34,629 nt of DNA from a virus. This document shows, in pieces, positions 18,552-31,585 of the stretch; positions within the stretch are counted from its first letter, which is position 1; each line of letters opens with the position of its first letter. The stretch is taken from the IMG/VR virus record IMGVR_UViG_3300010354_007511, positions 1 through 34,629 of that record; one strand, given 5' to 3'. The position numbers were made by a program, and so were the translations under genes. Below the pieces are notes generated by a model. It saw only the letters and a program-made list of their open reading frames with translations, ran no database searches and was not told the DNA's origin.

Positions 18552-18582
18552 TTTGTCAATTCACATAAATTACTTATATTAG
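18552..18582 (+). promoter_or_regulatory. Bacteroidota-type promoter candidate (TTTG-N19-TATATTAG)
   Basis: TTTG at 18552-18555 and TATATTAG at 18575-18582 are exactly 19 bases apart, the standard spacing for Bacteroidota housekeeping promoters (TTTG-N19-TAnnTTTG). The -7 element fits at seven of eight positions. It lies in the 119-base gap before the T9SS-CTD gene at 18636 and could let host RNA polymerase read this module directly. Confidence 0.55.
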
Positions 18583-18635
18583 TGTTGAATGATAAAAGAA
18601 CTAATTGTATTATTATTAACCAATATGGAGTTACG

Positions 18636-19076
18636 ATGATGAAGTATATCATTGCTCTTCTTTTTTGTTGTACCATAGGTACTGCAAATGAAACTTCACC
18701 ACACCTTCTGAAAAAGATTGTTGTTGGTGGAAACAATAATGCGTCACTTGGTCAAGTGATTGCTGGTTACTCCAATGGATTCCATATTGGAATCCGTATT
18801 CCGAGTAAAGTCGCGCTGTCTGTTGGTGATGAACAAGATTACCAACTGTCAAGATTTGATGCCCAAGTCTTTCCAAATCCAACTAATAATGGGTACTTTA
18901 ATGTGAAAGCAGATGACATCAAACACATTCAGATTTTTGATTTGAATGGTAAATCAGTCGGTAATTATTTTAATTTTACTGGCGAGACAATAAACCTTTC
19001 TAATAAGGGTGTGTATATTGTTCGTATAACAAACAAGAACAATTCAGTTTATTCAACAACAGTTATTTTCAATTAA
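18636..19076 (+). CDS. Exported protein with T9SS type A C-terminal sorting domain
   Basis: The 146-residue protein has a signal peptide (KYIIALLFCCTIGTAN, about residues 3-18). A short linker follows, with ASLGQVIAGYSNGFHIGIRIP. The C-terminal domain starts at VFPNPTNNGYFNV (about residue 78) and continues IQIFDLNGKSVGNYF, INLSNKGVYIVRIT and VYSTTVIFN. This is the pattern of the Por secretion system type A sorting domain (PNP-x-G, V-x-D-x-x-G-K, G-x-Y-x-V), which directs proteins through the type IX system to the surface of Bacteroidota cells. GGAG at 18627-18630 supports 18636 or 18639; in-frame sequence further upstream lacks a start with a site. There is no obvious enzymatic domain; a surface display or receptor-masking role is speculative. 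Confidence 0.8.
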   Translation: MMKYIIALLFCCTIGTANETSPHLLKKIVVGGNNNASLGQVIAGYSNGFHIGIRIPSKVALSVGDEQDYQLSRFDAQVFPNPTNNGYFNVKADDIKHIQIFDLNGKSVGNYFNFTGETINLSNKGVYIVRITNKNNSVYSTTVIFN

Positions 19077-21305: not shown

Positions 21306-22940
21306 ATGATTAACTATAAAAATCTTTTAGCAAATTCAAATATAATACTTCAATCGATAAGAGAAGTGTTAAATGAATCATCAAAAAAAGAAGAACTTAT
21401 TGATGAAGTAACTACATTGAAAGAAACAAATACTCCAGAATTTAAAGAAGGATTGGTTGTTTACTTTGCATCATTACCTTCTGCTAAGTTAAAAATAATA
21501 GAAGATAAATTAAGCAAACCAGAAAACAATCAGAAAAAAATACAATTACCTGAACCAGATAGTGATGAATATTATGGAGCAAAATCATATGGTCTTGTGA
21601 TAAATGCCGTTAAACATTTATCAAATGATATAGTTAAAACATCAGAAAAAGCATTTTACTATAATGCCCTTTCTGTTGCAAAAAAATTACAAGAAATATT
21701 TAAAGGTCCAGTTGAGGCAGATAGAGGGGATGCTACATATTCAAAATTAAGAAATAAAGCAGTTCAACTTATTAAAGAAGGTTATGAAATGGCATTAACA
21801 GCAGACAAGTGGTGTCCTGCTGACATATACATTTACAATGACGATAGTGCTCCATCAAAAATGCTAACTGCAGATTCTCTAAATATTGGCGATGATTCTT
21901 TTAATGCTTATTTCCAAACGGATATAAAAAATACAAAAGATGGTTTAGTTGGTATTTCATTGAAAGAAGAAAAGGCACAGGCAGGTAAAGCAACATCCTT
22001 TTTTAAAACACTCGAAAGGAAAGAAAATTATCCAGATGCACCTAAACTTTCAGGAAATTCAAGATATGTTTTAAGTATAGCATATAATTTTGATCAAGCA
22101 GTAAAAAGTATATCTAAAGATCCCAAAAAGGCAATAGGTTATATTGCAACTGCACATGCTTCTGCTGAAATAATTTCTTCAAAATTGAAAGAAGCGGATG
22201 TGGTTAAAAATGATATGTTTAAAATATTAAAAACAACATTCGGTGCATCTGACTTAAAAAGTATAAAAAATCCAAAAGGTAGATACGATAAAGATGAAAC
22301 GAGAGAATTGTTTAGTAATAAAAAATTAAAATCATTTGTTATACCAAGTTCTGTTCAAAAAAATGTAGATAAACTATTTGCATCTGTTAGAAAGAAAACA
22401 GAAACAGAATATAAAAAAGCAAGAAAAGAATTTTTAGATGTTCTTGGTAAAAATAATATGGAAGTTCCAGCTCAAACTCCAGATTTAAAATCAATGGGCA
22501 TGGAAACTATACTGAAAAAGACATCATGTTACATGGTTGCTTCTTGGGTATTAGACGGAATAAATAGTAAAAAACTAAATATACCTCCAGTGTATCAAAC
22601 TATAATAAAAGAAAAGAATGCATTTGTTGCAATGACCGCATATGCAATAGGTATGGCTGGAATATCGCCCACATTCTTTAAGATGATTGGAAACTCAAAA
22701 GGAGGAACCGCTCACTTGGAAACATTTTATGGTTCTGGATTTCTCAATCTTGATGAAAAACAAAATGTAATAATAGGTGATAATCCTGGAAGAAAAGGAT
22801 TTTTTGTAGAATTTATTACCGCAGTTAAGTTAGAAGAAAAGAAAGGAAGTAAACCTGTCAGTAGATATAAAGTTTCTCTTGATTTCAGATATGCGGGTGA
22901 GGCAATAAATATAGAAGTTAGTGAATTGAAGGCGGTATAA
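21306..22940 (+). CDS. Large unknown protein with tag-like N-terminus
   Basis: The 544-residue protein begins MINYKNLLANSNIILQSIREVLNESSKKEEL. The first residues resemble the MIKLKDIL leaders of the minus-strand operon, and an L-N-E site lies at about residues 22-24. The body (about 60-400) is helical and lysine-rich. The C-terminal part has LKSMGMETILKKTSCYMVASWVLDGINSKKL, then AFVAMTAYAIGMAGISPTFFKMIGNSKGG, and ends in beta strands. It starts right after the endolysin stop, in the same unit. I do not recognise the family; packaging in the virion is possible. Confidence 0.6.
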   Translation: MINYKNLLANSNIILQSIREVLNESSKKEELIDEVTTLKETNTPEFKEGLVVYFASLPSAKLKIIEDKLSKPENNQKKIQLPEPDSDEYYGAKSYGLVINAVKHLSNDIVKTSEKAFYYNALSVAKKLQEIFKGPVEADRGDATYSKLRNKAVQLIKEGYEMALTADKWCPADIYIYNDDSAPSKMLTADSLNIGDDSFNAYFQTDIKNTKDGLVGISLKEEKAQAGKATSFFKTLERKENYPDAPKLSGNSRYVLSIAYNFDQAVKSISKDPKKAIGYIATAHASAEIISSKLKEADVVKNDMFKILKTTFGASDLKSIKNPKGRYDKDETRELFSNKKLKSFVIPSSVQKNVDKLFASVRKKTETEYKKARKEFLDVLGKNNMEVPAQTPDLKSMGMETILKKTSCYMVASWVLDGINSKKLNIPPVYQTIIKEKNAFVAMTAYAIGMAGISPTFFKMIGNSKGGTAHLETFYGSGFLNLDEKQNVIIGDNPGRKGFFVEFITAVKLEEKKGSKPVSRYKVSLDFRYAGEAINIEVSELKAV

Positions 22941-23229: not shown

Positions 23230-25596
23230 ATGGCAAAAAGAAGAAGAATACCAAATGATACAATATCGGATATGCTAACTGGAAAGTCTGGCATAGATGC
23301 ACTTAAAAATTTATCCGATAATAGATCTATTGGTAAAATAGATTATGTTGCAATGCAATTAAGTCAGCCATCGTTAGTGTTCAAAGAATTGATTACTGAC
23401 GAAGAAAAACTTATGATTACTGATAGACATGAAGAATTTAATAAAGCTCTTTGGTCAGAAGAAGATATACGATTAACGAAAATATTTACAAGTTCTTTAC
23501 AGTCAAACGAAACTAAAATATATTATAGAAATGTTTACAAAACAAATGATGCGGATTTAGGTCCAGAATTTACAATATCATATGGTGATTATTATGGCTA
23601 TGGATCATCTACTGGATCTTTTGGAAATATATCAACAAATGTTTATGAATCAAAAGCAATATACTCAAAATATCAAAATCTATTATTAGGTTCTGATAAA
23701 GAATTTTTTAAGTTTAATTTTCCAAGCTGGTCTAATGTAATTAGTAGTGGTGCCAGAATTTTATCTGCAGGTAAAAGTATAAGCACAAATTTAACAACAT
23801 ATAATTCAGAACAACAATTATATTTTGTGTCAAACTTTCCACTATCAAATTGGAAATCTGTATCAAGTGGTTATACATTTACTACTGCACTAAAGCAAGA
23901 TGGTACTCTGTGGTCATGGGGAAGTAATGGTAATGGTGAGTTGGGTATAGGAACAACAGAAAATTCAAATGTTCCTGTTCAAATAGGAACGGATAGTGAT
24001 TGGGTATTTCATACATCTGGAGCATTTCATTCATTTGCTATAAAATCGAATGGAACATTATGGACTTGGGGAAAAGGATCGGATTATAGACTTGGAACGG
24101 GAGCAAATACAAATGTTTTATCTCCAGTTCAAATAACATTACCCTTTCCTAAAATATGGAAATATGCAGCTGCAGGACAAGGACATTCTATTGCAGTAGA
24201 TAGTGATGGAAAACTTTGGGGATGGGGATATAATTCATCTGGACAATTAGGAACCGGTGATACTTCAAATAAAACTATACCAACACAAATTGGAAGTGAT
24301 ACCGATTGGGCTACCGTATATGCCTCAATAGAATACTCGGGAGACTGTTTTAGTTTAGCATTAAAAGAAAATGGTGAATTATATGGAATGGGATTCAACG
24401 AAAATTATCAACTTGGTTTAAATAATTCTTTAAGTCCAATAACAAATCCTACAAGAGTAACACGTACTGGACAAAATGATTTGTATGTGAAGGCATCCGC
24501 TGGTGGTAAAAGTAGTATTGCATTAGATTTTAATTCAAATTTGTGGAATTGGGGAACTTTCAATAGTGCAATTTGGCCATCAGCTAGCATATTTAGTGTT
24601 GCTGGTAGTAATTGGATTGATGTTAAAATATCAGCATATAACGCAATAGGATTAAAGTCTAATGGATCTGTTTATACGTGGGGTGAAAACGATTTTGGTA
24701 GTTTAGGGAATGGAAGTACCGATAGTTATTTGAATAGTCCTAAATCCATAATAATAAATCCAATACTAGAAGAAGATAAAAAAGTAGATGTAAGAAACAT
24801 ATTAGCCATTGAAACATCAGATTATGATACATTTGGTTCATTTTCTACAATAGTATCTAAATACGATTTCGATGAAAAAGAATATCAAGAGTCTGATTTT
24901 ATTTATGTAATAAATGTAAACAGAAATAGATTCAAAGATAATATAAAACCTGGAACTTGGCAATTATCTTTACTTCCAGTTGATGTATACAATAGACCGA
25001 TAACAGGAAGCATTCCCATTACTTTGATAGATGATTCCAGTTTATACAATTACGATGTTGATAAAAAAGATGTATACAATGTTTATAGTGGAAGTTTAGA
25101 AGATGGATTTAATATGAGTGAATATTCTGTACCATATGGTTTGTTCTATCCAAATCATGGCATTATAGTATTGAATGGTCGCTCTCTTTATTCATTTGCC
25201 TCCATTTTTACAAATAGATCTCTACCAACTGCGAGCGGTCAATTTGAATATTCTTCTAATGCAGATACGTTGTTTACATCGATAAGTGCATCTATGGATT
25301 ATGATTCATCAAAATATTACTTTCAAGGAATGTCATCAGAAAGAATAGAATCTTCTTACATATTTGTTCGTATAAAATCTGATGAATTTAATTACACTAA
25401 CAATCCCACATATGTTACTGGTGATAATGGTAGAATAAATCCGAAATATAGAAATAATGATTTTGGATTAACTTACATAACAACTATTGGGTTATATGAT
25501 GATGAAGAAAATCTTGTTGCTGTTGCTAAATTAAGCAGACCAATAAGAAAAACAATAGAGAAAGAAATGGTAATAAAAATTAGAATACGATATTAA
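23230..25596 (+). CDS. Virion-type protein with RCC1-like propeller (paralogue 1)
   Basis: The 788-residue protein has three parts. Residues 1-170 carry KIYYRNVYK ... FTISYGDYYGYGSSTGSFG ... ESKAIYSKYQNLLL, a pattern I associate with structural proteins of marine T4-like phages. Residues about 210-510 contain at least six RCC1-type repeats of about 50 residues, each with an L-W-x-W-G core (first cores near residues 226, 277, 327, 383, 437 and 480), which would fold as a beta-propeller. Residues about 540-788 carry FIYVINVNRNRFKDNIKPGTWQLSLLPV, PYGLFYPNHGIIVLNG and DFGLTYITTIGLYDDEENLVAVAKLSRP. The gene downstream is a paralogue with the same three-part design. The propeller is probably a surface-exposed binding module. 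Confidence 0.75.
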   Translation: MAKRRRIPNDTISDMLTGKSGIDALKNLSDNRSIGKIDYVAMQLSQPSLVFKELITDEEKLMITDRHEEFNKALWSEEDIRLTKIFTSSLQSNETKIYYRNVYKTNDADLGPEFTISYGDYYGYGSSTGSFGNISTNVYESKAIYSKYQNLLLGSDKEFFKFNFPSWSNVISSGARILSAGKSISTNLTTYNSEQQLYFVSNFPLSNWKSVSSGYTFTTALKQDGTLWSWGSNGNGELGIGTTENSNVPVQIGTDSDWVFHTSGAFHSFAIKSNGTLWTWGKGSDYRLGTGANTNVLSPVQITLPFPKIWKYAAAGQGHSIAVDSDGKLWGWGYNSSGQLGTGDTSNKTIPTQIGSDTDWATVYASIEYSGDCFSLALKENGELYGMGFNENYQLGLNNSLSPITNPTRVTRTGQNDLYVKASAGGKSSIALDFNSNLWNWGTFNSAIWPSASIFSVAGSNWIDVKISAYNAIGLKSNGSVYTWGENDFGSLGNGSTDSYLNSPKSIIINPILEEDKKVDVRNILAIETSDYDTFGSFSTIVSKYDFDEKEYQESDFIYVINVNRNRFKDNIKPGTWQLSLLPVDVYNRPITGSIPITLIDDSSLYNYDVDKKDVYNVYSGSLEDGFNMSEYSVPYGLFYPNHGIIVLNGRSLYSFASIFTNRSLPTASGQFEYSSNADTLFTSISASMDYDSSKYYFQGMSSERIESSYIFVRIKSDEFNYTNNPTYVTGDNGRINPKYRNNDFGLTYITTIGLYDDEENLVAVAKLSRPIRKTIEKEMVIKIRIRY

Positions 25597-25606
25597 GGTT
25601 TTATAC

Positions 25607-27937
25607 ATGGATAAAAATACATTCATAAGAAAAAAAATAGATTTGTCAACATCATTTTTATATGATAGAAAAGAAGTTGTAACTGCTCCGATGTGGCCTA
25701 ATAATTCTTCTGAATTGAGAAACATATACACAAGCTCAAACCAACCACATCATCAAAAAATATATTATAGAACCATATTTTCAGATTCAGCTAAAACGGG
25801 TAGTCTTGATGTTGATTTTAGTATAGCTTACGGTCATTATGCTGGCAGTGGTTCATCAACTGGATCATATGGATTGTTAGAATATAATGGTGCAGTGAGT
25901 GAATCACTTGCAATATACTCACAATATCGTAGTATGTTATATGAACAGGATAAAAGAAAATATTTATCAGATGGTAAATTTAGATTCTATGGATTGACGG
26001 ATGTTTACTTGGGTGCATACGCATTTGGTAGTAATAATATTGACAACGTTTTAAATTATTTAGATAGAGTAAAAATACCTGGAGTAAAATCATTTAATTT
26101 AAATAAAATAAAAAGTATATCATCTTACAAGTACGATGAATACGCCAATGCTAATATAAAATTTTATCTCATAAATGAAGAAGGTAAATTATTCTACAAT
26201 CAAAATGGTCAATTTGATCAAATAATTCAGATAGGAACAGATGAAGATTGGGAAATGGTATCATTTGGTAGTTCACATAATCTTGCTATAAAACAAGATG
26301 GAACTTTGTGGGGGTGGGGTAGTAATTCATTCGGACAATTGGGTATAGGATTTTCAGGAAATAGCTATAGCGAACCAACAAAAATAGGAATACAAAAAAA
26401 TTGGAAACAGGTGTATGCTGGTAGGGATTTTGCATTTGCAATAAATTCAAATGGAGAATTATATGCATGGGGAAGGAATATAGATACTGATTCAATAGGT
26501 GGTGGGATTTTAGGATTTGGCGATTCTCTTGATAGATATTATCCACAAAAAGTTGGTTCAAATACTTGGAAAAAAATATCATTAAATACTATAAATAGTA
26601 CAATACATGGTGTTTCTAAATATTGTATTCATGCGATAGACACAGACGGTAAATTATGGGGATGGGGTAATAATTCATTAGTAAATTATTCAATAGAACC
26701 AACACAACTTGGAACTGATACGAATTGGAAAGATATAGCCGCTGGATATGATTTTGCAATAGGAATACAAGGTGACAACAATGAGTTGTATGGTTGGGGT
26801 TCAACCGGATTATCTGGAGAATTATTAGCCGCATTAACTCCCATTCCAAGTATAACATATCCATCGTCAGTACCATTTTCTTCAAAGAAAAACTTAACAT
26901 CCGGTAACATATACGGAATACCAGAATCAGGTTGGACATCTGTGGATTGTGGACCAGATTTTACATTTGCAATAAACTCAAATGGAAATATGTACTGTTG
27001 GGGTAATAATTCAGACAATCAATTAAATGTTTCCGCAAATCCATTAGAGATTTCAATACAGCAATCAAGTCAATTATCCGGATGGGATATAATTTCTTGT
27101 GGATCTTTTAACTCAACGGCTGTAATAAATACACCAAATAGAAATGTCAATAGTATGGTTTCGGATGATATTTACGTTATCAATTTTAACCGATGGAATT
27201 TTAGAGACAAGATAGATTCAGGTACTTGGCAATTATCATTAAGAACTGTTTATACTGGTTCTGGTCAACAATTATTATATGAACCAGCTCCATCAACTTC
27301 ACCACCATATTCAACCATAACTTTGATAGATGAATCTGTAAATTTACAAGGTACTGAAGCAGAAAATCCCATGTATGATGTTACCAGTAAAGGTGGTATA
27401 GTTTATGGTATTTATAGAGGTAGTATTGAAAACGGAATAGATGAATCTGCTGTTGATTCTCCTTATGGACTTTTCTTTCCAGAAAATGGTATAATAATTT
27501 TGAATGGAGAAATTTTAGTTAATCCTGGATCCAGACAATCAATAACTATACAAACACGAAGAACACCCGCAACATCAAGTGGTGCTTATCCATTTTCATC
27601 AAATGCTGATTTAATGTATGCATCTATAAAAGGTGCAATGGAATTAGATGAAAAGTATTTTATTGCAAATACAGTTGAAACAAAAATTCCAACATATTGT
27701 TTTATACGAATAAATAATGATGAATTTAACTATACAATGAATAGAACAAAGTACCAAAAGAATGATAGTTTTTTATTAAAAGATAAATTTAGAACGGTTC
27801 CATACCCATTCACTTACATAACAAGTATTGGTTTGTACAATGACAATGATGATTTATTGGCTGTTGCTAAATTAAGTAAACCTATATTTAAAAACCCTTC
27901 AACAGAATTAGTTGTTAAAATTAAATTAGACATATAA
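25607..27937 (+). CDS. Virion-type protein with RCC1-like propeller (paralogue 2)
   Basis: The 776-residue tandem paralogue of the preceding gene starts 11 bases after it. The N-terminal backbone reads KIYYRTIFSD ... FSIAYGHYAGSGSSTGSYG ... ESLAIYSQYRSMLYEQDK. RCC1-type cores lie near residues 234, 284, 349, 393 and 461, with longer insertions than in paralogue 1. The C-terminal backbone has DDIYVINFNRWNFRDKIDSGTWQLSLRTV, PYGLFFPENGIIILNG and PYPFTYITSIGLYNDNDDLLAVAKLSKP. The backbone halves are better conserved between paralogues than the propellers, which fits a constant scaffold with a varying exposed domain. Last plus-strand gene before the convergent terminator. Confidence 0.75.
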   Translation: MDKNTFIRKKIDLSTSFLYDRKEVVTAPMWPNNSSELRNIYTSSNQPHHQKIYYRTIFSDSAKTGSLDVDFSIAYGHYAGSGSSTGSYGLLEYNGAVSESLAIYSQYRSMLYEQDKRKYLSDGKFRFYGLTDVYLGAYAFGSNNIDNVLNYLDRVKIPGVKSFNLNKIKSISSYKYDEYANANIKFYLINEEGKLFYNQNGQFDQIIQIGTDEDWEMVSFGSSHNLAIKQDGTLWGWGSNSFGQLGIGFSGNSYSEPTKIGIQKNWKQVYAGRDFAFAINSNGELYAWGRNIDTDSIGGGILGFGDSLDRYYPQKVGSNTWKKISLNTINSTIHGVSKYCIHAIDTDGKLWGWGNNSLVNYSIEPTQLGTDTNWKDIAAGYDFAIGIQGDNNELYGWGSTGLSGELLAALTPIPSITYPSSVPFSSKKNLTSGNIYGIPESGWTSVDCGPDFTFAINSNGNMYCWGNNSDNQLNVSANPLEISIQQSSQLSGWDIISCGSFNSTAVINTPNRNVNSMVSDDIYVINFNRWNFRDKIDSGTWQLSLRTVYTGSGQQLLYEPAPSTSPPYSTITLIDESVNLQGTEAENPMYDVTSKGGIVYGIYRGSIENGIDESAVDSPYGLFFPENGIIILNGEILVNPGSRQSITIQTRRTPATSSGAYPFSSNADLMYASIKGAMELDEKYFIANTVETKIPTYCFIRINNDEFNYTMNRTKYQKNDSFLLKDKFRTVPYPFTYITSIGLYNDNDDLLAVAKLSKPIFKNPSTELVVKIKLDI

Positions 27938-27941
27938 CAAA

Positions 27942-27970
27942 AAACCCCTCGAAATCGAGGGGTTTGTTTT
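27942..27970. terminator. Bidirectional terminator between convergent units
   Basis: An 11-base stem, AAACCCCTCGA (27942-27952) with TCGAGGGGTTT (27955-27965), flanked by A-rich sequence on the left and T-rich sequence on the right, so it works in both directions. It lies five bases after the stop of the second RCC1-like gene and four bases before the stop of the minus-strand 387-residue gene. Confidence 0.9.
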
Positions 27971-29132
27971 ATCTTATTCCTTTGTCACCGACTATCGCTA
28001 TTGCTCGTTTAAAGAAGTTATCCGTTTGTTTTATTTCTTCTATCTTTATATTGAGTTTCTTCAAGTTTTTATCTATTGCAGTTAGGAATGTGTTATCATA
28101 GTTCTCGCCTTTTGCCTTCTTAATCATACCAACCCAAATGGCAGCTTGAAATTCTGGCGGTGTCATTCCATATTTACTTGCCCATTGTTGTGTTAATCTT
28201 GCCATATAAACATAGTTTGGTGTCTTTGCTAGTATTTTTGATTTTTGTTTCTTATCAAGTTGTGGATAAAAGAATGACGCCATCCAAGTATCCATTGTAA
28301 CTGGAACCCAACCTAAATCTTCAAAACTATAATTAGGATCGAGAAGGTTTAGTGTAAATGAAAATACTTTCTCTGCAGATATAACAGTTGTATCTTCAAG
28401 AGCACCGCTTGGTTTAATGTGTCTTGATATTTCTTTAACTGCTATTTCTCTTGTTATTTGATAGTTGTTTGCTTTAAGTAGTTTCAAGAATCGTAGAATG
28501 TTTGGTAGATATGTGTTTACGCCCATGTTTCCCTTAATCATACCACGAACAGTCGCCAAGTCTTTGTAAGCGTCTTCTCCTTTCATTCTCTTATACAATT
28601 CGGTTGGTTCAATTTCCATCATCTCTTCTAACTTTGCCTTTGCCTGTTCACTTTCCAAATCTTTTTTCAATCCACGAAATGTTTGAGCTGCAAGTTTAAA
28701 GTTTTGTGATAGAGGATTTCTCGGTGAAAATATTGCAAGTAATACAAGAAATATTGTTCCTTCATTATCACCGAATGTTTCTAACATAGTCTTATTCATT
28801 TCAGCATACCAAGTCTTTGCTTCACCACCGAGTTCAAGTAGTTCTTCAATACCATCCATTATAGAACCATCTACTTTCAAAACACCCTTTACTTCTTCTA
28901 ATTCAGCAGGAGACATTTTTGTGTAGTCTAATTCTTTTTCGTCAATCTTAACATCTACAACTTGATTTAAGTCTGATTTGAATTTATCGAATATCTTATC
29001 CAACTCTTGTAATTGTTTACCGTTTAATTCAACTTCAACATCACCAGTTGATTCATTCACTCTACGATATTTTGTCATTCTGTCTTGTTCCTCTTTGGTA
29101 TTTTCACCTATGATGTCTTTTAACTTAATCAT
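27969..29132 (-). CDS. Candidate capsid-targeted protein, 387 residues, helical
   Basis: The N-terminus MIKLKDIIGEN has the layout of a T4-type capsid-targeting peptide with an I-x-E cleavage site at residues 8-10. The body is helical. Notable segments are EAKTWYAEMNKTMLETFGDNEGTIFLVLLAIFSPRNPLSQNFKLAAQTF (about 105-155), KVFSFTLNLLDPNYSFEDLGWVPVTMDTWMASFFYPQ (about 255-290) and TPPEFQAAIWVGMIKKAKGEN (about 330-350). The K-x-x-x-F-x-x-N-L...V-T-x-D-x-W pattern resembles a phage family whose name I recall uncertainly (DUF7178-like). AAGGAG precedes the ATG, which overlaps the upstream stop as ATGA. Last gene of the minus-strand operon. Enzymatic role unknown. Confidence 0.6.
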   Translation of the reverse strand: MIKLKDIIGENTKEEQDRMTKYRRVNESTGDVEVELNGKQLQELDKIFDKFKSDLNQVVDVKIDEKELDYTKMSPAELEEVKGVLKVDGSIMDGIEELLELGGEAKTWYAEMNKTMLETFGDNEGTIFLVLLAIFSPRNPLSQNFKLAAQTFRGLKKDLESEQAKAKLEEMMEIEPTELYKRMKGEDAYKDLATVRGMIKGNMGVNTYLPNILRFLKLLKANNYQITREIAVKEISRHIKPSGALEDTTVISAEKVFSFTLNLLDPNYSFEDLGWVPVTMDTWMASFFYPQLDKKQKSKILAKTPNYVYMARLTQQWASKYGMTPPEFQAAIWVGMIKKAKGENYDNTFLTAIDKNLKKLNIKIEEIKQTDNFFKRAIAIVGDKGIR

Positions 29133-29887
29133 TTTTTAATCTCCTTTTTAAATGCACCGTATGCTTTTTTATATGATTGTTCTGTTTCATCTTTTGCGTT
29201 GTCTGTATACTGCCAATTCCAAAATAGGTTGTCTGGTGTTTTGAATCCGTAAAAGTTTAATACTTTCTGTTGAACACTAACAACATTCATTCCATTCCAA
29301 TTTTGTCCTATACAAATGAATCCGGCTTCTTTATCACCGATTATATTTTCTTCACCTAATGTGCTATGACGATTTTCTAACCATGTCAATCTCTCAATTA
29401 ACTTTTGGTATTCTGCATTTGTCTGTCCCCAACGGATAGACGAAAAGAAAAGTATAATATCTGCTTGAAATAAATCCTTTGATACTTTCCATAGTTCATC
29501 GGATTCATTATTTACACTTGCCCAACATCTATGTTGACCAGTTGGATTCTTTTCTTTATCTTTCAATACCGTATCTTTAACACCACAAGTATTACCGTCT
29601 CTATGTGAAACATTGCCTTCACACGGTAGTATTTTCAATTGTGGTATATCAATCCATTTAGTTTTGTTCGGTATAGACTTCTTAATAAATAGTGCCAATT
29701 CAGTTGATTTAGGTAATTCATCTTCTACACCACCTTTATCATAACCAGTATTGAATGGGTATCTTGTTGATGTTGTAATGAATAATACCTTACTATCTTT
29801 CTTTGATGATAGATAGTTTATTGTTTCGGTTACATTGTTTGATAGATTTGTATTCTCTAACAAAGATTTTAATTTTGGTATATTCAT
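29129..29887 (-). CDS. FMN reductase/flavodoxin-like protein in the tagged operon
   Basis: The 252-residue protein has a flavodoxin-like fold. SKVLFITTSTRYPFNTGYDKGG (about 32-53) gives the first strand and phosphate-binding loop. STELALFIKKSIPNKTKWIDIPQLKI is the typical helix-strand of NADPH-dependent FMN reductases. DIILFFSSIRWGQTNAEYQKLIERLTWL (about 148-175) is the loop and helix that close over the flavin ring. A cysteine- and histidine-bearing insert (CEGNVSHRDGNTCG...QHRCWAS) is unusual. The N-terminus MNIPKLKSLLEN is a variant of the operon leader with L-L-E at residues 9-11. It is coupled upstream by TAATG and downstream by ATGA. Confidence 0.65.
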   Translation of the reverse strand: MNIPKLKSLLENTNLSNNVTETINYLSSKKDSKVLFITTSTRYPFNTGYDKGGVEDELPKSTELALFIKKSIPNKTKWIDIPQLKILPCEGNVSHRDGNTCGVKDTVLKDKEKNPTGQHRCWASVNNESDELWKVSKDLFQADIILFFSSIRWGQTNAEYQKLIERLTWLENRHSTLGEENIIGDKEAGFICIGQNWNGMNVVSVQQKVLNFYGFKTPDNLFWNWQYTDNAKDETEQSYKKAYGAFKKEIKK

Positions 29888-30474
29888 TATTGTTTAGTAA
29901 TAGATTGTAAAAATGTTTTATAGTCATCTAATGATTTAACTTCAACACCGCCTGATTGTTGAGCCCACTTCTCTCTACTAGGAAATAAGAATGTTGGAAC
30001 ACCTGCACTAGTTGAAGTCTTAATCAATCTTTCGGTCTTAAACCCCATCTTACATTTTCTACTGACATCAACATCCATTCGTTTAATATATCCCATTGCA
30101 TTCGGAATGAATCTATCCTTTGAATAGATACGGTCTTCGTATTCCTCATAATCATCTTTACCATGTTGGTCTTGCCAGTAATTGTAAGCACCGCCCTTAT
30201 ATTTGTTACCCAATTTAGTTCCGTCTAATTCAAACCGAACAAAGTAACATTGGAAGTTACTTGTATTCTTTGTATATCCTTCTACCTTTGTTCTTGCTAC
30301 GGACATATAATACCCTTCATCATACTTTCTGCCGGGATCAACATTGCCACCAATTGGAGTAGGACTTAACATGAAACGATTTGTTCCAATGATATTATCA
30401 GCCGCCTCTGTATTTGTAAAGTGGTATACCACATCGGAAACACGTTCCATCAATATGTCTTTTAATTTAATCAT
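29887..30474 (-). CDS. Candidate capsid-targeted ADP-ribosyltransferase-like protein
   Basis: The 195-residue protein starts MIKLKDILMER, with L-M-E at residues 8-10. The body resembles the ADP-ribosyltransferase fold. DVVYHFTNTEAADNIIGTNRFMLS (about 14-37) puts H18 where the NAD-binding histidine of H-Y-E enzymes sits. EGYYMSVARTKVEGY (about 53-67) follows, then FVRFELDGTKLGNKYKGGAYNYW and EEYEDRIYSKDRFIPNAMGYIKRMDV (about 110-134), where E113 is a possible catalytic acid. An in-frame ATG six codons upstream (30492) lies inside the previous gene. The 30474 start gives the ATGA overlap seen at other junctions of this operon and has GGGAG upstream. The enzyme class is a fold-level reading, not certain. 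Confidence 0.6.
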   Translation of the reverse strand: MIKLKDILMERVSDVVYHFTNTEAADNIIGTNRFMLSPTPIGGNVDPGRKYDEGYYMSVARTKVEGYTKNTSNFQCYFVRFELDGTKLGNKYKGGAYNYWQDQHGKDDYEEYEDRIYSKDRFIPNAMGYIKRMDVDVSRKCKMGFKTERLIKTSTSAGVPTFLFPSREKWAQQSGGVEVKSLDDYKTFLQSITKQ

Positions 30475-31346
30475 TTTCTTGGTTTCTCCCATCCAATTGC
30501 TTTACGGTATTGATCATAATTATTAACTACCCAATTAACCGCATCCATATGATTACTAAATGTAATCAATTCTTTTCTTTTCTTTGAATAAATACGAAGT
30601 GAACCCATCTTATCATATATGGGAACAATGTCTGTTGCAGTCTTACCATTGAATATAGTTTGCATTTCATCATCTGCAGAATGGAAACTGCGTATACCTG
30701 AAGCACGGAATACCAATATCGTTCCGTCACCGTATTTGACTGTATACCCTTCCAAACCATATCCTGCAAAGTCTTCTACCGTATATGCAAAGTTATATCC
30801 ACCGAGTTTCTTTTCTGCACTCTTACCATCAAACCATGTGGTCAATCCTAACTTTGTCCAATCCTTAACACCACGAATGAAGCCTTGTTTAGCCATGAAC
30901 GCTGCATCCAATTGTGATGTTCCATGAACTAACCATTGATTCTTTACCAATTCGGGTTCTTCTAACCAATACCATGAGGGGATATGTTCTGAACCAATAT
31001 CTAATGAGTTATACAGACTTTCAAGACCCATACCCGCCATTCGTAGAAGATAGAACTTGAAGATTGCCCCATAATCTTCTTTATTCTTCACTTTCATAAC
31101 ATCAAACGAACCATATGAATCCCATTCATCTTCTTTGGCCATCTCTACTTCAGCGGTTTTCCAACCCTTTCTGACATCAGAGTTACCAACATAATACTCT
31201 ATCATTGAATCATATCCAATAGTATTCTCTAACTCTCTGAACTTCTGTTCCGGTGTGGAATTAAGGTATGCCATGAGTTTAGTTATGTCGGTATCAACAT
31301 ACTCTTTTATTATAGATTCTTTTAATATGTCTTTTAGTTTTATCAC
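30471..31346 (-). CDS. Candidate capsid-targeted ADP-ribosyltransferase-like protein
   Basis: The 291-residue protein starts at GTG 31346 with MIKLKDILKES (L-K-E at residues 8-10). Residues 11-130 are helical. The C-terminal part has WLVHGTSQLDAAFMAKQGFIRG (about 138-159, H141), GGYNFAYTVEDFAGYG (about 182-197), GDGTILVFRASG (about 206-217) and SADDEMQTIFNGKTATDIVPIY (about 223-244, E227). The order histidine, aromatic loop, strand, then glutamate in front of a short strand is that of H-Y-E type ADP-ribosyltransferases. Its GTG overlaps the upstream TGA (GTGA), so it is probably translated by coupling. Target unknown; T4 Alt, a packaged ADP-ribosyltransferase acting on host RNA polymerase, is the obvious comparison. 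Confidence 0.6.
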   Translation of the reverse strand: MIKLKDILKESIIKEYVDTDITKLMAYLNSTPEQKFRELENTIGYDSMIEYYVGNSDVRKGWKTAEVEMAKEDEWDSYGSFDVMKVKNKEDYGAIFKFYLLRMAGMGLESLYNSLDIGSEHIPSWYWLEEPELVKNQWLVHGTSQLDAAFMAKQGFIRGVKDWTKLGLTTWFDGKSAEKKLGGYNFAYTVEDFAGYGLEGYTVKYGDGTILVFRASGIRSFHSADDEMQTIFNGKTATDIVPIYDKMGSLRIYSKKRKELITFSNHMDAVNWVVNNYDQYRKAIGWEKPRK

Positions 31347-31573
31347 TTGTATGCTTTTATCAAATAACCTAATATATTTCCTCTACCCACAACTTTACCT
31401 GTTCGGTCTTTTGTGTAATTGTATTTTGAATCGTATGTCCCAAGTAATCTTCCTTCGGTATCTCTAAAAATAAATTTACCATCCGATGATTTTGTTACAT
31501 GGCCTATAACTTTGCCACTATTATTACGGACATACTCTCTACTTTCGTTTAATATTTCCATCAATTTTATCAT
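31343..31573 (-). CDS. Small tagged beta-repeat protein
   Basis: The 76-residue protein is the first of the five-gene minus-strand operon. The leader MIKLMEILNES has L-N-E at residues 8-10. After it come three short strand-turn repeats built on G-x-x-x-G: SGKVIGHVTKSSDGKFIF, EGRLLGTYDSKYNYT and TGKVVGRGNILGYLIKAY. Such repeats resemble small beta-flower or beta-hairpin proteins seen in Bacteroidota. No ribosome site is visible before ATG 31573, and a second in-frame ATG at 31561 would shorten the leader to MEILNES. Removal of the leader would leave about 66 residues. Function unknown. Confidence 0.6.
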   Translation of the reverse strand: MIKLMEILNESREYVRNNSGKVIGHVTKSSDGKFIFRDTEGRLLGTYDSKYNYTKDRTGKVVGRGNILGYLIKAYK

Positions 31574-31585
31574 ACATATAAATAT
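31574..31585 (-). promoter_or_regulatory. Promoter-like 12-mer (minus-strand copy)
   Basis: On the minus strand this reads ATATTTATATGT, identical to the copies at 15530 and 20350, and points into the five-gene tagged operon. It lies unusually close to the first ATG (31573), directly adjacent, so a transcript starting here would be leaderless for that codon or would use ATG 31561 or the downstream genes. Confidence 0.35.

Follow-up and report, generated by a model that had tools for sequence, protein, structure and literature searches.

Why would adjacent genes for unrelated proteins begin with nearly the same ten residues? The question is raised by a 34.6-kb virus record (IMG/VR record IMGVR_UViG_3300010354_007511; the whole 34,629-nt stretch is referred to as the window), in which five minus-strand genes at 27969-31573 form a cassette of tightly overlapping neighbours. 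Each gene shares 1-4 bases with its neighbour, an arrangement resembling that of translationally coupled operons, and four of the five start with the leader pattern MIK-L-[KM]-[DE]-I-[IL]-x-E. We propose, at a probability of about 0.8, that this leader is the capsid-targeting sequence (CTS) of a clade of T4-like phages infecting Bacteroidota, a reading well supported, at the level of sequence comparison, by the positions conserved and by the logic of protease and cleavage site.

The leader and its distribution

The first gene of the cassette, open reading frame (ORF) 5 (31343..31573), encodes a small beta-repeat protein of 76 aa with the leader MIKLMEILNE/S (residues 1-10 at 31544..31573; slashes mark the predicted cut). 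It is followed on the same strand by ORF4 (30471..31346, 291 aa), which has a GTG start and the leader MIKLKDILKE/S (31317..31346), and by ORF3 (29887..30474, 195 aa), with the leader MIKLKDILME/R (30445..30474) and an ATG start at 30474, the mechanically called frame starting at 30492. ORF2 (29129..29887, 252 aa, flavodoxin/FMN-reductase-like) starts with a variant only (MNIPKLKSLLEN), and its degenerate leader MNIPKLKSLLE/N (residues 1-11 at 29855..29887) has an L-x-x-L-L-E spacing identical to that of MIRLKPLLEQ in ORF4 orthologues. The last gene, ORF1 (27969..29132, 387 aa), carries the leader MIKLKDIIGE/N (29103..29132) on a mostly helical, DUF7178-like body. The earlier note on this DNA had described these near-identical starts, with a variant on the fifth gene, in front of unrelated bodies, and both observations stand: a profile-profile comparison of ORF4 with ORF3 aligned the 13 leader residues alone.

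Of the 946 pairings of genes in the window, just six had at least five of nine N-terminal residues identical, and these were the six formed by ORF1, ORF3, ORF4 and ORF5. A degenerate DNA pattern for MIKLKDI[LF]xE matched at least 120 IMG/VR stretches, while a control of equal degeneracy, made by permuting these residues, matched none in IMG/VR; the sharing of the leader is thus far beyond chance. Among the matches listed, 88 pattern sites lay in 80 loci, with practically all of them reading an ORF directly from the leader and with many unrelated bodies behind it. The earlier note had suggested a profile search with the leader, and we ran one on the genomes of relatives using a position-specific scoring matrix (PSSM) built from residues 2-11 of 26 leaders; at a score cut-off of >=8 it identified 2-12 genes per relative or leader-bearing genome, against 0-1 of ~590-950 internal Met positions per genome with a comparable score. 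When 81 body families collected with the leader were aligned, the leader alone was common to all, with I2, L4, L8 and E10 nearly invariant and no consensus beyond E10. In 49 genome-derived body families the information content was 3.46 bits for L4, 3.28 for E10, 3.21 for L8, 3.18 for I2 and 2.82 for [IL]7, falling to 0.63 bits at position 9 and <=0.50 after position 10; this set was chosen by the PSSM, which inflates the conserved positions and leaves the contrast among positions 8, 9, 10 and 11 unaffected.

ORF1 is encoded in ten IMG/VR contigs, and relatives carry differing leader genes in the interval between groEL and ORF1. The full five-gene cassette is present in two (G001 and G002), another tagged repeat protein takes the place of ORF3 and ORF4 in G003, only three cassette genes are found in G004, and G008 and G010 have other tagged genes. 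The cassette is kept while its contents change, so that a constant tag is found in a plastic slot. Among annotated phages, Microcystis phage Mel-JY01 is the closest and the next, by its capsid protein, is Flavobacterium phage immuto at 54%; these nearest records, and a sorting domain of the type IX secretion kind encoded in the window, uphold the assignment of the earlier note to a Bacteroidota phage. In immuto the leader heads KNV73_gp231 (MIKLIDLLTE/S), and further leaders are predicted for gp230, gp093, gp087, gp083 and gp082. The sorting domain is a C-terminal one (PF18962, E 3e-10) in a gene at 18582-19076 (+) that is unusual for a phage, and the protein is a signal of a Bacteroidota host. 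The recorded host of Mel-JY01 (PP395634) is Microcystis elabens; its nearest capsid relatives, however, are Bacteroidota phages, and it may in fact infect an associated bacterium.

T4 capsid targeting and the prohead protease

The first ten residues of the T4 internal protein IPIII suffice for packaging (PMC9026906), and amber-suppressor tests assigned targeting to residues 4 and 7 and processing to residues 8 and 10 (PMC9026906). The same four positions carry much of the conservation of our leader, which bears out the analogy drawn in the earlier note from hydrophobic residues at 4, 7 and 8 and a Glu at 10. Applied to T4, the reduced motif M..h..hh.E (h, hydrophobic) matched 5 of 276 gene calls, namely ipII, ipIII (MKTYQEFIAEA), gp24 (MAKINELLRES), gene 61.1 and dexA.1, the last an apparent start artefact; the internal proteins and gp24 are substrates of the gp21 protease in T4 (PMC5694885). 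Only this hydrophobicity pattern works in T4, and the MIKL-trained PSSM was rejected as a T4 search tool, since the sequences diverge too far at positions 2-4 and the T4 internal proteins score low. T4 gene 61.1 (NC_000866 18966-19130) starts with MKTFKEFIKED, a good CTS match, and its product is predicted from this start to be an overlooked packaged protein.

The closest counterparts are IPI, IPII and IPIII of T4 (Mullaney and Black 1996, as reviewed in PMC9026906 and PMC3012670), whose unrelated bodies likewise follow a ten-residue N-terminal peptide, with hydrophobic residues at 4 and 7, [IL] at 8, E10, a gp21-family protease and a conserved tag on variable cargo. They differ in their consensus, MKTYQEFIAE in T4 as opposed to MIKLKDILxE here, and in a predicted repertoire that is far larger and more swappable in this clade of Bacteroidota phages (81 body families sampled). 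The T4 vertex protein gp24 shares the identical L-L-x-E10 spacing in its propeptide MAKINELLRES, but is a shell protein, whereas the leader-tagged proteins would be cargo. T4 Alt is an ADP-ribosyltransferase (ART)-type cargo with a gp21-cut N-terminal propeptide, its N-terminal MELITELFDED fitting the pattern by eye and its cut falling after ITE6 (PMC5694885), although ORF3 is small, DarT/Tpt1-like and no Alt homologue. In SPN3US and phiKZ packaged proteins are also freed by a prohead protease (MEROPS S80), but from propeptides that are mostly far longer and have another motif. No repeated leader of the MIKLKDILxE type was found in Rhodothermus phage RM378. Further CTS-like leaders also recur: M[DE]NFDLKKFL[VI]EN and (R)MQ.LAGIITES keep the h-x-x-h-h-x-E spacing on longer N-termini (immuto 1803 and 118632; G014 59398 and 148605; immuto 25061 and 111675). 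MIKLKDIL itself was not found in a literature search, nor were immuto virion proteomics or papers on Mel-JY01; the T4 CTS is already known, and the clade-wide leader is new relative to the literature searched.

The earlier note had called for a gp21-type protease and for [LI]-x-E sites in the capsid and scaffold proteins. The 34.6-kb fragment itself has no such protease gene, and the gp21-type (S77) family PF03420 was found in relatives G001, G003 and G008 as well as in each of the seven contigs of >=145 kb that bear the leader (G011-G017). The evidence on cleavage sites likewise comes from relatives: the major capsid protein of all ten relatives has L-[IVL]-x-E-[ASGT] aligned at the T4 gp23 cut LTE65/A, immuto has IVSE/A, and the gp22-like scaffolds contain 21-29 [LIV]xE sites. 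The N-termini of the capsid proteins themselves (MKISSLLED, MSTINQLLES and MANLVQSLLTES) resemble the leader, which is suggestive of cargo and shell docking on the core via a similar peptide. Within ORF1 a second candidate cut site, V25-N26-E27 (29052..29060, minus strand), is proposed from an alignment of 10 orthologues in which E27 is invariant. A 544-aa protein encoded at 21306-22940 (+), with homologues in G001 and G003, has a conserved I[IV]QS[IV]R..L.ES near residue 24 that is reminiscent of a prohead-protease site.

Bodies behind the leader and the upstream element

ORF1 matches Pfam DUF7178 (PF23802) at 28.5 bits, above the cut-off of 27. Its AlphaFold2 model (pLDDT 69) has the helix-hairpin-helix glycosylase AGOG as best PDB match (probability 0.94, E 0.05, TM score 0.28), a weak match, and the model was too weak for ORF1 to be taken as a DNA glycosylase. 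ORF2 scores 18.4 for FMN_red (PF03358), below the cut-off of 24, while an orthologue with a perfect leader, MIKLKDILLE (L048:7608-8417), is above it at 25.7. The earlier note had counted two ART-like proteins, of which ORF3 gains weak but consistent fold evidence: for its AlphaFold2 model (pLDDT 78) Tpt1 and DarT structures take PDB ranks 1-6 and 8, with probabilities of 0.98-0.82 for the first four and none below E 0.001 (the top matches have E > 0.01), and the family alignment shows no variation at H18 and T20 and hardly any at R61 and E113. The model tentatively points to an ART fold near DarT/Tpt1 for ORF3. ORF4 remains a possible ART by sequence motif only (HGT and GYNFAYT, recognised by eye); its sequence profiles gave no PDB or Pfam match, and the comparison with ORF3 described above was discarded as a route to this assignment. 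PDB sequence searches with ORF1, ORF3 and ORF4 found nothing.

Tagged bodies in other genomes include NUDIX, RimK ATP-grasp, a zeta-toxin-like kinase, a DEDD exonuclease, a sigma-70 region 2 protein, a 2H phosphoesterase with a sub-threshold Acb1 match and, in immuto, NT5C, whereas a protein of the S-adenosylmethionine (SAM)-lyase family has only a degenerate leader without E10. PADLOC detected no defence system among the bodies, only scattered weak matches and a DEDDh exonuclease. Injected T4 proteins acting against host defences have precedents in IPI, directed against GmrSD, and in IPIII for strain ECOR17 (PMC3012670, PMC9391042). Given these precedents and the effector-type cargo, a role as early anti-host effectors is a plausible interpretation, likely for part of the tagged set. 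The contention of the earlier note that the cargo is unlike the T4 set was overstated, because T4 too packages an ADP-ribosyltransferase (Alt).

A late-like element, ATATTTAT, is located 4 nt before the start of ORF5 (31578..31585, minus strand). Its count within the window is not unusual, being reached by 14 of 100 shuffles, so its meaning rests on the relatives, where it precedes tail tube, sheath and portal genes as well as cargo genes heading operons. Upstream of genes it is enriched on the sense strand only (44 against 1.1 expected in G014, with 1 in reverse), while T4 upstream regions instead contain the known TATAAATA (17 against 0.7 expected). The ATATTTAT/TATTTATA element is the reverse complement of the T4 type and is often found 4-8 nt before the start codon. 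We infer that ATATTTAT acts as a late promoter, and the ATATTTAT/TATTTATA element is a candidate late promoter giving rise to a near-leaderless mRNA. Elsewhere in the window, two paralogues of ~780 aa with RCC1 beta-propeller repeats are encoded in an apparent tail region (23230-25596 and 25607-27937, plus strand).

A proposed mechanism and its rivals

In the mechanism that we propose, the cassette would be transcribed late from a ATATTTAT-type promoter, and the peptide M-I-K-L-x-x-[IL]-[IL]-x-E would dock each protein into the prohead core via residues 4 and 7. A gp21-type prohead protease would then cut after [IL]-x-E10 and free the body inside the head; carried along with the DNA, the body would enter the next host and take effect immediately, and each of the bodies (ART, flavoprotein, DUF7178 and beta-repeat) may serve as an effector.

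Several observations weigh against the leader being a CTS. No capsid genes lie within the window, itself a fragment, and therefore the evidence on protease and capsid sites comes from relatives. PF03420 is also present in 4 of 13 background IMG/VR contigs of >=60 kb (3 of 5 of those of >=130 kb), so its co-occurrence with the leader discriminates poorly and was dropped as statistical proof; the leader was not found in these four contigs, and the sole background contig matching the broad pattern encodes MITFKEFLVE, itself T4-CTS-like. The presence of the protease is thus necessary but weak evidence, and the substrate logic is stronger. The leader of ORF2 is degenerate and has no Glu in the G003 and G004 orthologues, Q10 occurs in some orthologues of ORF4 (LLEQ, where [LI]-x-E falls one residue earlier), and the leader is absent from one orthologue of ORF1 (L007). 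Lysozymes and M23 peptidases are among the tagged proteins, which would be odd for cytoplasmic effectors, and our literature search found no virion data for the clade. Finally, the codon of Ile7 is ATA in 52 of 55 leaders of the window and G001-G017, against a background of 0.45, and that of Asp6 is GAC in 28 of 41, well above background, while the choice at Ile2 matches background. The bias at codons 6-8 (GAC, ATA) is not explained by codon usage, and at codon 7 it points to a constraint on the nucleotides in addition to that on the peptide, none of which is predicted by capsid targeting.

This codon signal is what favours an improbable explanation, in which the leader is a nucleotide-level element (a site of translation initiation or mRNA regulation, or a hot spot at which recombination swaps the cargo), with the similarity of the peptides as a by-product; MIKLKDIL is, however, written in 17 different DNA encodings, and amino-acid conservation depends on frame, leaves position 9 free and stops hard after E10. 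Tagged cell-wall hydrolases would suit a leader directing proteins to another destination (tail, membrane, host secretion or replication compartment), to which we attach similarly little weight, as the [IL]-x-E ending is the capsid-protein cleavage site of the same genomes and the pattern matches the T4 CTS and gp24. The hydrolases, including M23/tail-lysozyme proteins, and the many tagged bodies without a known domain would fit a possible, though rather unlikely, variant in which the leader is a CTS and the cargo mainly structural, lytic or DNA-condensing filler; against this, the cargo includes the NUDIX, RimK, zeta-toxin-like, DEDD, 2H and ART-like families, and its swapping at one locus resembles an arms race. 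Chance or a recent duplication of gene starts, which has nothing in its favour besides the shared peptide itself, is refuted by the empty permuted search, the unrelated bodies and the varied encodings. Returning to capsid targeting by the leader, we consider it about evenly balanced that a branch of uncultured T4-like Bacteroidota phages loads a large and rapidly changing set of injected enzymes by means of one conserved, swappable tag, and that this tag also bears a signal at the nucleotide level (GAC-ATA-TTR) through which regulation or the exchange of cargo may be coupled to the cassette.

Proteins injected by phages are the first to meet host defences, and few are known outside T4 and the giant phages because nothing sets them apart from other unknown genes. 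Should the leader prove to be a CTS, each leader gene in environmental phages would become a predicted packaged protein, recognisable from its first ten residues, and the T4 model, in which positions 4 and 7 serve targeting and positions 8 and 10 cutting, would gain a large set of independent data from nature. The leader would then also provide a ready tag for loading proteins into Bacteroidota phages.

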